Shown in pieces: positions 13,200 to 18,076 of a DNA stretch of 64,000 nt. Origin of the DNA: an uncultured Altererythrobacter sp. (GTDB taxonomy: Bacteria > Pseudomonadota > Alphaproteobacteria > Sphingomonadales > Sphingomonadaceae); the NCBI GenBank assembly GCA_913056125.1, contig CAJXNC010000010.1, forward strand, positions 1-64,000. Reading direction: 5' to 3'. A program made the position numbers and the translations under genes. The first letter of the stretch is position 1, and every line of letters starts with the position of its first letter. The notes below the pieces were generated by a model. The model saw only the letters and a list, made by a program, of their open reading frames with translations. It had not been told where the DNA came from and ran no database searches.

Positions 13200-14420
13200 T
13201 TAGGCCGCCTTCTTCAACTCCAGATCCATCCGGTCCCAAATCTCGACCAGCGCCTTGGTAACCTCGTCCATCATCTCTTCGGTATGGGCGGGGCCGGGGG
13301 TGAAGCGCAGGCGCTCCGTCCCGCGCGGCACGGTCGGGAAATTGATTGGCTGCACATAGACGCCGTATTCGGCGAGGAGTATGTCGCTGATTTTCTTGGC
13401 ACGCACCGGATCGCCCACCATCAGCGGAACGATATGGGTGGTGGAATCCATCACCGGCAGGCCGGCATCGCGGAATTTCTTCTTGAGCATGGCTGCAGCA
13501 GCCTGCTGACCGTCCCGCTCGACCGAGCTGCTCTTGAGGTGGCGCACGGCCGCCAGGACACCGGCGACCAGCACGGGGCTGAGCGAGGTGGTGAAGATGA
13601 AGCCCGGCGCATAGGAGCGGATGCAGTCGATGACCTTCTTGCTCGAAGCGACATAGCCGCCCATCACGCCGAAGGCCTTGCCGAGCGTGCCTTCGATCAA
13701 ATCGATCCGATGCGCTGCTTCGTCGCGTTCGGAAATGCCGCCACCGCGCGCGCCATACATGCCCACGGCATGCACTTCGTCGATATAGGTGAGGGCGTTG
13801 TACTTGTCCGCCAGGTCACAGATCGCGTGGATCGGGGCGACGTCGCCATCCATTGAATAGACGCTTTCGAAGGCGATCAGCTTGGGCGTATCGGGATCTT
13901 CGGCCGCGAGAAGTTCTTCAAGGTGTTCCACGTCATTGTGACGGAAAATGCGCTTTTCGCAGCCCGAATTGCGGATGCCGGCAATCATGCTGGCATGGTT
14001 CAGCTCATCCGAAAAGATGATGCAGCCGGGCAGCAGCTTGGCCAGCGTGGAAAGCGTCGCATCGTTGGACACATAGCCGCTGGTGAAGAGCAGCGCGGAT
14101 TCCTTGCCGTGCAAATCCGCCAGCTCGTTCTCGAGTTGGATGTGATAATGTGTGTTGCCGCCGATATTGCGCGTGCCGCCCGAACCGGCGCCGACATCGT
14201 GCAGCGCCTCTTCCATCGCCTCGAGCACCTTGGGGTGCTGGCCCATGGCGAGATAGTCGTTCGAACACCAGACGGTGATCGGCTTGGGACCGTTATGGCC
14301 GGCAAAGCAGCGCGCATTGGGGAAGGCGCCCTTGTTGCGCAGGATGTCGATGAAGACGCGGTAGCGCCCTTCGGAATGCAGGCGGTCGATCGCCTGGTCG
14401 AAGATCTGATCGTAATTCAA
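13200..14420 (-). CDS. hemA: 5-aminolevulinate synthase
   Basis: The enzyme condenses glycine with succinyl-CoA to 5-aminolevulinate, the first step of the C4 haem route typical of alphaproteobacteria. The 406-aa protein begins (M)[22 protein letters not shown] and has the alpha-oxoamine synthase motifs: [39 protein letters not shown], and the PLP lysine in [15 protein letters not shown] place the start at TTG 14420 because the family begins exactly there; the frame runs 177 bp further upstream but that stretch overlaps the 3' end of murI and is not conserved-looking. A FNR-type half-site lies about 100 bp upstream. Confidence 0.93.
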
Positions 14421-14516
14421 GCTACTCGTCCATCCAGCACCGCGAGCAGACTCGCGGCCAAGAGTTTCGTCGGACTTAGTCAATCGGCGCGCGTCTTTAA
14501 AGCACGGAGTTTGCGA

Positions 14517-14530
14517 GCGATTCGCATCAA
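14517..14530 (-). promoter_or_regulatory. Candidate FnrL binding site upstream of hemA
   Basis: Read on the minus strand the sequence is TTGATGCGAATCGC. It matches one half-site of TTGATnnnnATCAA perfectly and three of five bases of the other. It is centred about 103 bp before the hemA start codon and overlaps the last codons of murI. FnrL is encoded at 139-837, and hemA is an established FnrL target in Rhodobacter. Confidence 0.4.
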
Positions 14531-15324
14531 AGCCCGCGGATTTCTGCGATTCCGAAGGGTTGGAAGGCGCTGGCGTAAGTCGCAGGATCTTGTTCATGGC
14601 CGGTCACAATCGCGAAGTCTTGCCGGGCGCGGCGGAATGGCTGCCCTCGCGTGAGATAGGCGATGCGACGGGCAATACCTTGCGCTCCGTCAACGAATTG
14701 CACGCCGGGACCGAAGGCCTCCGCCAATTCCGTTTCGAGCAGCGGGAAATGGGTGCAGGCGAGCACGACGGTGTCGATGTCCGCGCCGCCGGGCTGGCCT
14801 CGTAGTCCCTCTACGGCATTGCGGATGAAGGCCGGGTCCACCATTCCACCACGCAGTTTCGCTTCAGCCGCCGCAACCAGTTCGGGGGCGGCATGGCGCA
14901 GTAGCGACTTTCCCTGCGCGAACTCAGCCTCGAGATTATCGACATAGGCCTGGCGGATCGTCGCCCTCGTACCGAGCAGGCCGATCACGCCGGTTTGTGT
15001 GATTTCCGATGCCGGCTTGATCGCAGGTACGGTGCCGACAACCGGGATTTCGAGCACGTCGCGCACCATGCCCAAAGCGATAGTGCTGGCAGTGTTGCAG
15101 GCGATGCATATCAGGCGCGGGTGGTATCGCTCCGCCATTCGCCCCAGCAATCCGCAGACGCGCGCGGCAATTTCCGCCTCGCTCTTGTCGCCATAGGGCA
15201 GGGCTGCCTCGTCCGCTAGGTAGATGACCGGCGCATCTGGCAGGAGCTCGCGCGTCTCGGCGAGGACGGACAGTCCGCCCACGCCGGAATCGAGAAACAG
15301 GATCGGGGCGTGGGGCTCGACCAT
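14527..15324 (-). CDS. murI: Glutamate racemase
   Basis: MurI converts L- to D-glutamate for peptidoglycan. The 265-aa protein has the two catalytic cysteines in ACNTAS and ACTHFP, the N-terminal [12 protein letters not shown] and the [11 protein letters not shown] loop. The start is ATG 15324 ([14 protein letters not shown]); an upstream TTG at 15360 would add twelve non-conserved residues. The gene is followed on the same strand by hemA 106 bp downstream and preceded by the LuxR/EF-hand genes. Confidence 0.92.
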
Positions 15325-15362
15325 CCGCGCCGAGATGGCCGAGCGCCGATAAGGCGTCAAGT

Positions 15363-16121
15363 TCAGCTATTGGGCGTCGGTTGCAGGTTTTCCTGCCACT
15401 CGCCAGGGATGCCGAAGCGTTCCAGCGGCACCCGTGCCCACTCATGGTACTCGGGATAGGAAACACGGCCGTCGCCATTGCTGTCTGCCTGTGCGTAGAA
15501 GCCCTCGGTAGCCTGTTTCGGCGTCATCGGACGGATTTCCTCGCCCTCACTGGCCTGCACCGGTTGTGGATTTGCGGGAGGACTCACCGGTGATTCCCGC
15601 CCTTCGAGAAAACCCGATTTGTCTTCGTCGAGATAGTCGAACGTTGCCTGAGTGATCACGGCGATCTCGGCTTCGGAAGGCCGGATCATGTCTTCCGGAC
15701 TAACTCCCCGATATCCTGTTTCCGGGCCAGCCCCCGAACCCGGCAAAGCCCCATAGGAGCCCTCGGCTCCGGATGCTTGCAGGGCAAAGGCAAGTGTGGC
15801 TGCGGCAAGAATACTCATAGTGACAACTCCATACGTCTTTGCGTGGGAGTGCCGTCCTTGCTTGGCGACGAGGTGGGAGGCGAGGTCCGGCGGACCGGAT
15901 ACGGCTTGGTCGTAACCCTCCGCCATGGCCAATATCCGCGCCGCTTCGCGTGATGTATGGACGCCCAGCTTGGTGCGCGCATGCTTGAGGCGTTTCTCTA
16001 CCGCATGGTGCGTAATGCCGAGATCGAGCGCCATTTCCTTGGCGGTTTGTTGCCGTGCAAACCGGCGAAGGCACTCTTTCTCGCCTTCACTGAGCCGTTG
16101 GATTTCGACACTTTCGTCCAT
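15363..16121 (-). CDS. Membrane-tethered LuxR-type regulator with EF-hands (short paralogue)
   Basis: The 252-aa protein combines three parts. Residues 11-70 form a LuxR/GerE-type helix-turn-helix (SEGEKECLRR, QTAKEMALDLGITHHAVEKRL). Residues about 98-117 form one membrane helix. The C-terminal part carries two canonical EF-hand loops, D165-E176 (DEDKSGFLEGRE) and D213-E224 (DSNGDGRVSYPE), joined by a Pro/Glu-rich linker. The expected topology is HTH in the cytoplasm and EF-hands in the periplasm, as in ToxR-like one-component regulators. ATG 16121 is used; the extra upstream residues look unrelated. A longer paralogue lies 77 bp upstream. Calcium sensing and target genes are inferred, not known. 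Confidence 0.75.
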   Translation of the reverse strand: MDESVEIQRLSEGEKECLRRFARQQTAKEMALDLGITHHAVEKRLKHARTKLGVHTSREAARILAMAEGYDQAVSGPPDLASHLVAKQGRHSHAKTYGVVTMSILAAATLAFALQASGAEGSYGALPGSGAGPETGYRGVSPEDMIRPSEAEIAVITQATFDYLDEDKSGFLEGRESPVSPPANPQPVQASEGEEIRPMTPKQATEGFYAQADSNGDGRVSYPEYHEWARVPLERFGIPGEWQENLQPTPNS

Positions 16122-16198
16122 GCCGGCATGGTAGGGCCAACTCATGCGGCGGGAAAGTCCGGTCGGACCGTAGCCCGACCAGAAACGCCCTTGAGCGA

Positions 16199-17326
16199 CT
16201 ACCCTTCGCGGTTGGCGCCTGGGCTCATTTGCGTCCAGTCGGCCGGGACCAGCGGGATGCCGTTTTCGACATAATGCGGGATAATCGGCGTGGAATATTC
16301 CTCGAAGCTTATCCGCCCGTCGCCGTCCCGGTCGGCATTCTCCATATATTGCGCCCGTGCATCATCGCCGGACAGCCGGTTCAGCGGATCGTTCCGGTCA
16401 TAGACCAAGGTTCCGTCTGCCCGCAGCGTGGCCTTGGGCGTGCCGAGCATCTCGGGAGCCTCCGCCAGTTCGACAAAGCCCGACCGGTCCCTGTCCGTGG
16501 CGTCGAACATGGTGCGGACATAGGCGCGTGCCCTTTCCTCCGTGGCCGGGGTGGTTTCGAAGTCCGTCGGAAGGAATTCCCGCTGCTCCCCATTACCCGG
16601 ATTGGCGGCGTAGGGGGGATTGCGCTCGCCGATCACGATCACGTCCGCGCGATTTACGGCAAAGCCGTTCTTCAACATGGCATCGTAGCGGACATTGCGG
16701 AATTCGGCATGGCTGATGCGGTTGTCGCCATCGTCCTCATTCTGATCGATGAAGAACTGCCACGCGGCCTGACCGGTCAGTTCATCGCGCGGAGCCATGT
16801 TGCAGCAGGCAGCACCGATGCTGCGCGGACCTTCCGACTCCTCGATGAAGCCGGACCCATCCGCGTCGAATTCGGCAAATTGCTCTGCGATGTGGTCCTC
16901 GATCTGCTCGGGCGTTGCCATCACCATGAGTATTTCGGGCACGTCGGAATTGTCGGTTGCGGTCGCCTCGACCGTGCTTGCTTGCGATAGGAGGAAGGCG
17001 GTTGCGGTCGCCAGAAGGATCATCGTCATTACTCCCAATGCCAGTGGTCTGGTGAACCACTTGTCGGGCGTGGGAGCCTCACTTTCGACCTCCGGCGAAT
17101 GGGCTACCGTCAGGCCGTACCCTTCCGCCTCGCCCAGCATGCGGGCCGCTTCGAGCGAGGATCCGGCATCGAGCTTGATACGCGCCATCTTCAGCCGCTT
17201 CTCGACCGCATGGTGCGAAATGCCGAGATCGAGCGCGATCTCCTTGGCGGTCTTGTGCTGCAGCCATAGCCGCAGGCACTCCTTCTCGCGCTCGGTCAGG
17301 CGGCTGAGGCCGTTCCTCTCTTCCAT
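16199..17326 (-). CDS. Membrane-tethered LuxR-type regulator with EF-hands (long paralogue)
   Basis: The 375-aa protein has the same architecture as its neighbour. Residues 11-70 are a LuxR-type HTH about two-thirds identical to the paralogue, residues 95-114 a membrane helix, and the C-terminal region has canonical EF-hand loops at D154-E165, D278-E289 and D332-E343. A degenerate acidic loop (DQNEDDGDNRISHAE, 194-208) may be a fourth. Adjacent cysteines at 174-175 are unusual. ATG 17326 (MEERNGLSRLTEREKECL) aligns with the start of the paralogue. The gene is divergent from plsY with a 150-bp gap. It probably reports periplasmic calcium or envelope state, but this is inference. Confidence 0.75.
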   Translation of the reverse strand: MEERNGLSRLTEREKECLRLWLQHKTAKEIALDLGISHHAVEKRLKMARIKLDAGSSLEAARMLGEAEGYGLTVAHSPEVESEAPTPDKWFTRPLALGVMTMILLATATAFLLSQASTVEATATDNSDVPEILMVMATPEQIEDHIAEQFAEFDADGSGFIEESEGPRSIGAACCNMAPRDELTGQAAWQFFIDQNEDDGDNRISHAEFRNVRYDAMLKNGFAVNRADVIVIGERNPPYAANPGNGEQREFLPTDFETTPATEERARAYVRTMFDATDRDRSGFVELAEAPEMLGTPKATLRADGTLVYDRNDPLNRLSGDDARAQYMENADRDGDGRISFEEYSTPIIPHYVENGIPLVPADWTQMSPGANREG

Positions 17327-17476
17327 GCACCACAGATAGGCGCTGGCGTCGCAATTCCAAAGTACGGTCTGCTGGTACCGCGCGGGCGGAAGCGCCTGAT
17401 TTTGCTGCACGCCGCAATCCGAAGCGGATCATTTTGTCCCTGCCATTCGCAGGGCAAACGGCTATGCATCGCGACC

Positions 17477-18076
17477 ATGAACCTGCTTTACGCGACTCTG
17501 CTCGGCTACGCGCTCGGCTCGATACCCTTCGGCCTGCTGCTGTCTCTTGCAGCCGGCAAGGGGGATATACGCCAGATTGGAAGCGGGAATATCGGAGCCA
17601 CCAATGTGCTCCGTACCGGCAGCAAATGGCTCGCGGCGGTTACCCTGTTGCTCGATCTGGGAAAGGGCTTCCTGCCGGTCTTCCTCGCCTGGCATCTCTT
17701 TGCGCATGATGGCAGCTGGCATTCGCCCATCGCCGGCGCGGCAATCGGCGCAGTGTTGGGGCACTGTTTTCCCGTCTGGCTCAAATTCAAGGGGGGCAAG
17801 GGCGTTGCCACCAATGCCGGGGTCAGTTTCGGCGTCGCCTGGCCGATCGGGCTTGCCTATGCGCTGGTCTGGATCGGCGTGCTGGCCGGTTTCCGTATCT
17901 CCTCGCTGGCGGGGATGAGCGCGGTTGTGGCTGCAGTTGCCGCCGCGGCGATGTTCGGCCCGGTCGAATTCGTACCCGTCATGGCGGTGATCGCCGTTCT
18001 GGTCCTGTGGCTGCACCGCGCCAATATCGCCCGGTTGCGCGAAGGGACCGAGCCCAAGGTCGGCAGCAAGAAGTGA
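17477..18076 (+). CDS. plsY: Glycerol-3-phosphate acyltransferase PlsY
   Basis: PlsY transfers the acyl group from acyl-phosphate to glycerol-3-phosphate, the first step of phospholipid synthesis. The 199-aa integral membrane protein has the three conserved cytoplasmic motifs: GSIPFG near the start with SGNIGATNVLRT, the GHCFPVWLKFKGGKG glycine-rich block, and the distal R/E motif region. ATG 17477 is chosen; the frame opens further upstream without homology. Its stop overlaps the GTG of dprA (GTGA), so the two are coupled. Confidence 0.93.
   Translation: MNLLYATLLGYALGSIPFGLLLSLAAGKGDIRQIGSGNIGATNVLRTGSKWLAAVTLLLDLGKGFLPVFLAWHLFAHDGSWHSPIAGAAIGAVLGHCFPVWLKFKGGKGVATNAGVSFGVAWPIGLAYALVWIGVLAGFRISSLAGMSAVVAAVAAAAMFGPVEFVPVMAVIAVLVLWLHRANIARLREGTEPKVGSKK

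Follow-up and report, generated by a model that had tools for sequence, protein, structure and literature searches.

Tethered LuxR-type regulators with EF-hand tails carry a conserved and probable internal translation start

Membrane-tethered one-component regulators are usually viewed as single proteins, which signal either unaided or together with the product of a second gene. The DNA-binding domain of ToxR and CadC is a winged helix (Trans_reg_C). Two adjacent genes, P0001 and P0002, in a 64,000 nt stretch of an uncultured Altererythrobacter sp. genome (contig CAJXNC010000010.1; the window) resemble ToxR, TcpP and CadC, as these are described in sections of a census (PMC10269533), in having a DNA-binding domain, a single transmembrane (TM) helix and, by prediction, an extracytoplasmic domain, and with a DNA-binding domain and a TM segment in one chain they are transmembrane transcription regulators by definition. 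They differ from ToxR and CadC in their GerE-type helix-turn-helix (HTH), their EF-hand tail and a conserved internal start, and with GerE and no Trans_reg_C in a Pfam scan they lie outside the ToxR/CadC family proper. In the census main text, LuxR, EF-hand, calcium and isoform are all without a hit. The 12-TM LuxR-type regulators DadR and CadR of Eggerthella lenta, from what is described in excerpts of PMC9734109, are likewise membrane-spanning and locus-encoded with possible autoregulation, but their HTH is C-terminal behind 10–12 TM helices, whereas here the HTH comes first and is followed by one TM helix and a probably extracytoplasmic tail. In VtrA/VtrC and ToxR/ToxS (PMC9214523, in part) a tethered regulator has a periplasmic part that works with an HTH-less second protein, but that partner has another fold and is encoded by a separate overlapping gene, whereas the partner proposed here would have the same domain in the same frame. 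There is no overlapping separate partner gene downstream of the pair, the next open reading frame after P0001 being murI, and this is not a co-component system of the VtrA/VtrC type. The Caulobacter in-frame internal starts (sections of PMC4117421) share with the arrangement predicted here two in-frame products from one mRNA; 75 alternative internal starts were found in that alphaproteobacterium, in which most first starts are without Shine-Dalgarno (SD) sites, but they were identified gene by gene through proteomics, whereas the signal described here is comparative and concerns one regulator family. EfhP of Pseudomonas aeruginosa is a bacterial EF-hand calcium sensor linked to calcium-dependent transcription; unlike P0001 and P0002, no DNA-binding domain is described for it in the accessible portion of PMC11559002 and its effect is tied to other regulators. 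The 12-TM LuxR regulators and EfhP are the nearest systems among the literature matches listed, and these open-access matches include no LuxR-EF-hand regulators, no DUF4019 regulators and no internal start in tethered regulators, in keeping with a first-pass annotation of the window, by which no characterised regulator of this build is known.

The long form of P0002 (375 aa; 16199..17326, minus strand, as are all features below) has a LuxR-type HTH, a TM helix and two EF-hand pairs, and that of P0001 (252 aa; 15363..16121) has a LuxR-type HTH, a TM helix and one EF-hand pair, an arrangement proposed in the first-pass annotation with which both Pfam and hydrophobicity agree. The GerE matches are at residues 9–63 in each (17138..17302 in P0002 and 15933..16097 in P0001) and score 26.4 and 36.5 bits respectively; both are over the curated Pfam cut-off of 23.5, and the proteins qualify as LuxR/GerE regulators. 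The two HTHs had been described as about two-thirds identical, and we find 61% identity across 74 matched residues. There is one hydrophobic stretch per protein, with the best 19-residue windows beginning at residue 98 (P0002) and 95 (P0001), and an AlphaFold2 model together with hydrophobicity places the P0002 TM helix at residues 93–115 (16982..17050). P0002 has three canonical 12-residue EF loops (DADGSGFIEESE, residues 154–165, 16832..16867; DRDRSGFVELAE, residues 278–289, 16460..16495; DRDGDGRISFEE, residues 332–343, 16298..16333) and a degenerate second loop region seen by eye (residues ~196–208, 16703..16741), and P0001 has two canonical loops (DEDKSGFLEGRE, residues 165–176, 15594..15629; DSNGDGRVSYPE, residues 213–224, 15450..15485), the same loops that had been counted before. 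EF-hand_1 scores 52 bits in P0002 (cut-off 25.4), and EF-hand_7 in P0001 is barely over its cut-off (30.1 bits vs 30). The NCBIfam lanmodulin model gives P0002 14.3 bits, far under its cut-off of 135, and a lanthanide reading was dropped on this account. The AlphaFold2 model of P0002, computed from a 24-row alignment of the window proteins and relatives, is confident in the HTH (pLDDT mostly 91–98) and mostly so in the first EF pair (139–220), is less certain in the second EF pair, and has a low whole-chain pTM (0.43); its top PDB match by Foldseek is calmodulin (E 1.4e-5), with low TM-scores of 0.17 and 0.39. A ToxR-like topology, as claimed in the first-pass annotation, fits the charge bias around the helix, with K/R averaging 2.9 before it and 1.7 after it in 71 members, D/E averaging 1.7 before and 3.8 after, and more K/R before than after in 50 of the 71. 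This bias, and the finding that relatives have other domains in place of this tail, support a cytoplasmic HTH and an extracytoplasmic EF-hand part.

By sequence comparison P0001 and P0002 are assigned to a large, mainly Sphingomonadaceae, HTH-TM family with exchangeable C-terminal domains. The architecture seen earlier in the pair stands; that its HTH-TM module is shared by a large family with swappable tails was missed in the first-pass annotation, as was the conserved internal start. The genome containing the window (3.0 Mb in 19 contigs) has three HTH relatives at E ≤ 1e-3 including the pair itself, the third having a DUF4019 tail (74.6 bits; cut-off 26.5), and P0002 has matches at E ≤ 1e-3 in 275 of 397 genomes of the same family, most listed places being matched in the HTH only. 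We enlarged the sample by 80 stretches and sorted all HTH-bearing open reading frames into 159 with a TM segment that is followed by 60 or more residues and 19 whose TM segment is near the C-terminus. The tails of the 159 are EF-hands (61), DUF4019 (58), a ~90-aa repeat (26) and others (14); of two 'other' proteins scanned, one weakly resembles the kinase sensor domain 2CSK_N, its score of 17.4 bits being below the cut-off of 23.2. The ~90-aa domain (GTEAALRSLVAGLASG...) is present singly or doubled as the tail of many Sphingomonas members (e.g. L010, L011, L012, L029, L032, L033) and a Pfam scan of one such member gave no match to it. In the tail-anchored relatives (e.g. L106, L112, L116, L121, L123) the same HTH type is followed by a TM segment at the extreme C-terminus, with no outside domain and no internal start, and L035 is a second HTH-TM gene in tandem with an EF member, whose charged, repetitive tail is without EF loops. 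An EF alignment search of 196 genomes drawn from the order matched 92 at 1e-10, of which the five outside the family have matches that begin at model position 86 or later and are thus without the HTH. A search with the DUF4019 paralogue of 385 genomes drawn from the class matched six at 1e-8, four of them in the same family; the two matches from elsewhere in the class, in other families, are to DUF4019 proteins that stand alone and have signal-like N-termini (L183, 138 aa, and L184, 143 aa), and these are a possible source of the DUF4019 tail.

A tree of 52 HTH-TM rows splits EF/repeat rows from DUF4019-type rows with full support, the DUF4019 side of this split being three rows only, one of which is an EF-labelled long branch. 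P0002 is nearest to an EF member from a genome of the same genus, and P0001 is a long branch of unsure placement. The pair had been interpreted as a duplication followed by sensor divergence, but in the tree the two are not sisters, and we have dropped a recent local duplication; many forks are weak, 18 of 49 inner ones being below 80% support.

Across the relatives a G-x-x-x-M pattern is near constant at the start of the TM helix, and the remainder of the helix is variable. Of 62 members showing the pattern, 61 have GGA as the Gly codon, although among other Gly codons in the 76 tested genes GGA accounts for only 193 of 1532 and GGC for 826, and the GGA codon places a GGAG mostly 8 nt ahead of the ATG. 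In P0002 this family-conserved SD core (17032..17035) is 8 nt before an internal ATG (Met102; 17021..17023), and in P0001 the core at 15827..15830 is likewise 8 nt before the ATG of Met102 (15816..15818). Fourteen of the 76 are outside the pattern and most retain the translation signal by other means. There are instances where Val at the Met place is encoded by GTG (L014 and L025) or Leu by TTG (L023), eight G-x-x-M members have AAAGGA, AAGGGA, CAAGGA or AGAGGA ahead of the ATG, and L031 has AGGAG at the site; inspection of these 14 found no internal start codon in L044 and none convincing in L017. In the enlarged sample a site was counted when an ATG, GTG or TTG in frame lay no more than 10 codons from the TM start and was preceded, at 5–10 nt, by GGAG, AGGA or GAGG; as a control, synonymous codons were shuffled within each gene 200 times with the protein kept. 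Such a site is present in 151 of the 159 members, in 126 of 134 at 90% clustering and in 71 of 78 at 60%, where the shuffles give 14.5 (maximum 23 in 200). It is common to all tail types (EF 58/61, DUF4019 57/58, repeat 26/26, other 10/14; by cluster 25/27, 37/38, 2/2 and 7/11 respectively), and is found in only one of the 19 tail-anchored relatives and in none of their 13 clusters (shuffles 1.1 and 0.6). FtsQ (0/30) and RodZ (1/29), which are unrelated N-in signal anchors, are similar to their shuffles (1.6 and 0.9). Among the eight of 134 members that have no such site, five have a weaker or off-spaced purine run by eye, L044 and L054 have no purine run, and L126 is of another build. The three plasmid-borne DUF4019 members that were read, one from Acetobacter in another order, all have the internal start, and the two tail-anchored plasmid relatives read do not; each of three plasmid relatives examined with annotation is recorded as one CDS. 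An in-frame start codon with an SD sequence at initiation spacing is conserved in this family beyond chance.

We consider it likely, judging from these signals, that the internal start is used. The main rival to internal initiation is pausing, in which the gene would encode a single-product tethered regulator, the SD-like site serving to halt elongation in a programmed way, in aid of membrane targeting or folding, with no short protein made. Pauses of this kind have been proposed to help membrane protein targeting in E. coli (PMC4359368), and an association between pausing and internal SD sites is reported for Caulobacter (PMC4117421). A pause would be quite improbable here, in that conservation extends to a start codon spaced as for initiation, GTG and TTG serving as stand-ins (67 ATG, 3 GTG and 1 TTG at 71 sites, the spacing being 8–10 at 67 of them), Met is rare elsewhere in the TM region (34 of 1278 residues; 2.7%), the mRNA is open downstream of the site, and FtsQ and RodZ from the same bacterial family have no excess of internal SD and start. 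Pairing with the anti-SD is strongest for the 8-mer beginning at -15, and at 61 of 70 internal sites it exceeds that of any candidate first start. Third-position GC over -8..+6 is 0.57 compared to 0.76 in shuffles, and predicted mRNA folding over -33..+15 is weaker than in shuffles (z 13.1; flanking windows 0.9 and 2.2) and is still reduced with the SD and start codons fixed (z 5.5 for -33..+15 and 9.0 for -18..+30). The stretch -48..0 is more folded than in shuffles (z -3.5 for 71 aligned sites, SD and start codons fixed) and is possibly a control hairpin. A conserved Gly as a TM packing motif was rejected as the main cause, the codon being specifically GGA; the residue after the GGA-G Gly is Gly, Val or Ala at all 71 sites, as GNN in a TM segment allows. 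An excess of A at +4 (39 of 71 sites vs 28% elsewhere in the TM region) was set aside as start evidence in that Ser codons there are not shifted to AGC.

The predicted short forms, without the HTH, are 274 aa in P0002 (16199..17023) and 151 aa in P0001 (15363..15818). At the 71 sites the median number of apolar residues is 8 before the internal start and 12 after it (quartiles 12–14), and thus the long form would have a full-length TM helix and the short form a stretch of signal-peptide length. K or R is absent from the first six residues of the short form in all 71, and a standard Sec signal peptide was dropped for this reason; there is a K or R within 20 residues upstream of the internal start in 70 of 71, in a part that is retained by the long form alone. 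Beyond the internal start, 67 of 71 have a loose signal-peptidase site and 39 a strict one. Export of the short form is possible, and it may instead stay inside or at the membrane; without a K/R-containing N-region it may miss the periplasm, which would spoil a partner role. For the short form we favour, at somewhat less than even odds, a built-in partner or competitor that tunes the regulator. A different explanation is that the internal start is used but is a relic of the fusion of an HTH to a gene for a secreted protein, the short product being an ordinary periplasmic protein with no signalling role. Standalone secreted DUF4019 proteins do exist (L183 and L184, above), and in other families of the order only matches to the TM/EF part were seen. 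Nonetheless, the same signal is found beside unrelated tails and across two deeply split HTH types, a distribution that would call for numerous fusions in parallel or else for selection acting on the module, and the short form is without a normal signal-peptide N-region; a relic seems improbable. A further question is what the EF-hands do in the tethered regulator, and calcium is in our estimation a reasonably likely ligand. It is rather unlikely that the EF-hands serve structure or another metal, the long form being a tethered regulator that does not sense calcium. That P0001 passes the EF-hand cut-off only just is in accord with such a role, as is the exchange of the EF tail for other domains in relatives, such that a shared logic need not involve calcium. 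On the other side, calcium loops require the conserved first-loop positions, and D154, S158, G159 and E165 of the first loop are invariant in the 24 aligned EF members. Calcium sensing by the EF-hand tails is plausible, and DNA binding could be coupled to extracytoplasmic calcium, as the first-pass annotation suggested.

Both plsY and murI are matched at 29 of 37 named EF-type loci and at none of 19 repeat-type loci. The gene order in the matches is plsY, regulator(s), murI and hemA (5-aminolevulinate synthase), corresponding to 13200–18076 in the window. P0001 ends ~40 nt ahead of an ATG that is probably the murI start (the open reading frame listing opens murI at an upstream TTG), and with such a short gap co-transcription of P0001 and murI is likely. 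Upstream of P0002 is a candidate operator, GTACCAGCAGACCGTAC (17362..17378), of the form GTACCA-N5-CCGTAC, which is the sole exact match in the genome. Thirteen of 49 EF members have a close form ~50–106 nt ahead of the HTH start, as do L047, L026, L028 and L011, whose tails are of other types. An exact dyad search upstream gave at most three shared copies against a shuffle maximum of two; the looser element was picked by eye after that search, and the counts that follow are from the same data that suggested it. Within 200 nt upstream, counted by cluster, the GTACCA core is found in 18 of 27 EF clusters (shuffles 1.1), 1 of 2 repeat and 2 of 11 other, and among the types serving as controls in 3 of 38 DUF4019 clusters (shuffles 1.4) and none of 13 tail-anchored clusters; at 90% clustering 18 of 20 of the repeat type have it. 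The DUF4019 members differ in what we take to be the recognition helix of the HTH (e.g. SVHTVNERLR vs SHHAVEKRLK). An element at EF and repeat types, together with a distinct DUF4019 recognition helix, fits a site read by the EF/repeat-type HTH, and the element is a candidate autoregulatory operator; another explanation is that it is a shared promoter element. A wider regulon was dropped, as there are four genome matches with up to one mismatch compared to 21 for the reversed pattern, and no excess beyond the single exact site.

What is read from the sequence is the architecture, the family, the conserved internal start, the weak mRNA folding around it and an upstream element that recurs. Genes of the P0001/P0002 type probably give rise to both a tethered regulator and a short form without the HTH, and there is a reasonable case that each gene encodes a dual-product, membrane-tethered one-component regulator with a probably Ca2+-binding EF domain and a short partner form. 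The side of the membrane, the binding of calcium, autoregulation, use of the internal start and what the short form does are all inferred, and a simple scheme would be as follows. Translation from the first start would give the long protein, made up of a LuxR-type HTH in the cytoplasm, a TM anchor and, outside the cytoplasm, an EF-hand domain for which Ca2+ is the probable ligand. From the same mRNA, the internal SD and the start codon where the TM segment begins would give a short protein that has this EF-hand domain too but no HTH, and that keeps just ~13 residues of the hydrophobic part. GTACCA-N5-CCGTAC is probably the site by which the long form controls its own promoter, where metal on the EF-hand part would alter the pairing of tethered regulators and hence DNA binding; they perhaps also act at murI-hemA. 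With its shared sensor domain the short form could be a pairing partner, a competitor or a buffer for the long form, and the two initiation rates would then set the threshold or response of the tethered regulator. More broadly, and tentatively, the family may carry its own partner within the gene, an HTH-less sensor copy mixing with the tethered form and the initiation ratio setting sensitivity, with the EF branch as an autoregulated calcium switch beside murI. The codon evidence suggests that the whole family is built for two products from one frame. If so, this would be a testable answer to how tethered regulators set their gain, and the EF-hand branch would be a minimal bacterial calcium-to-transcription system; the same codon test is applicable to other regulator families.

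Reading frames are broken in the HTH, linker or tail in L054, L073, L076, L095 and L098, several of which are metagenome bins, and sequence error is possible; these were considered as natural split genes and rejected, having no clean independent short open reading frame. Plasmid records add Acetobacter and Komagataeibacter members, from another order, and a Tn3 transposase and a recombinase adjoin the gene in Acetobacter and Sphingopyxis plasmid records. In L218 (Acetobacter ascendens plasmid) and L219 (Sphingopyxis granuli plasmid) the start of the DUF4019-type gene overlaps the recombinase stop beside the Tn3 transposase, and by this arrangement these relatives appear to be a mobile version of the regulator.
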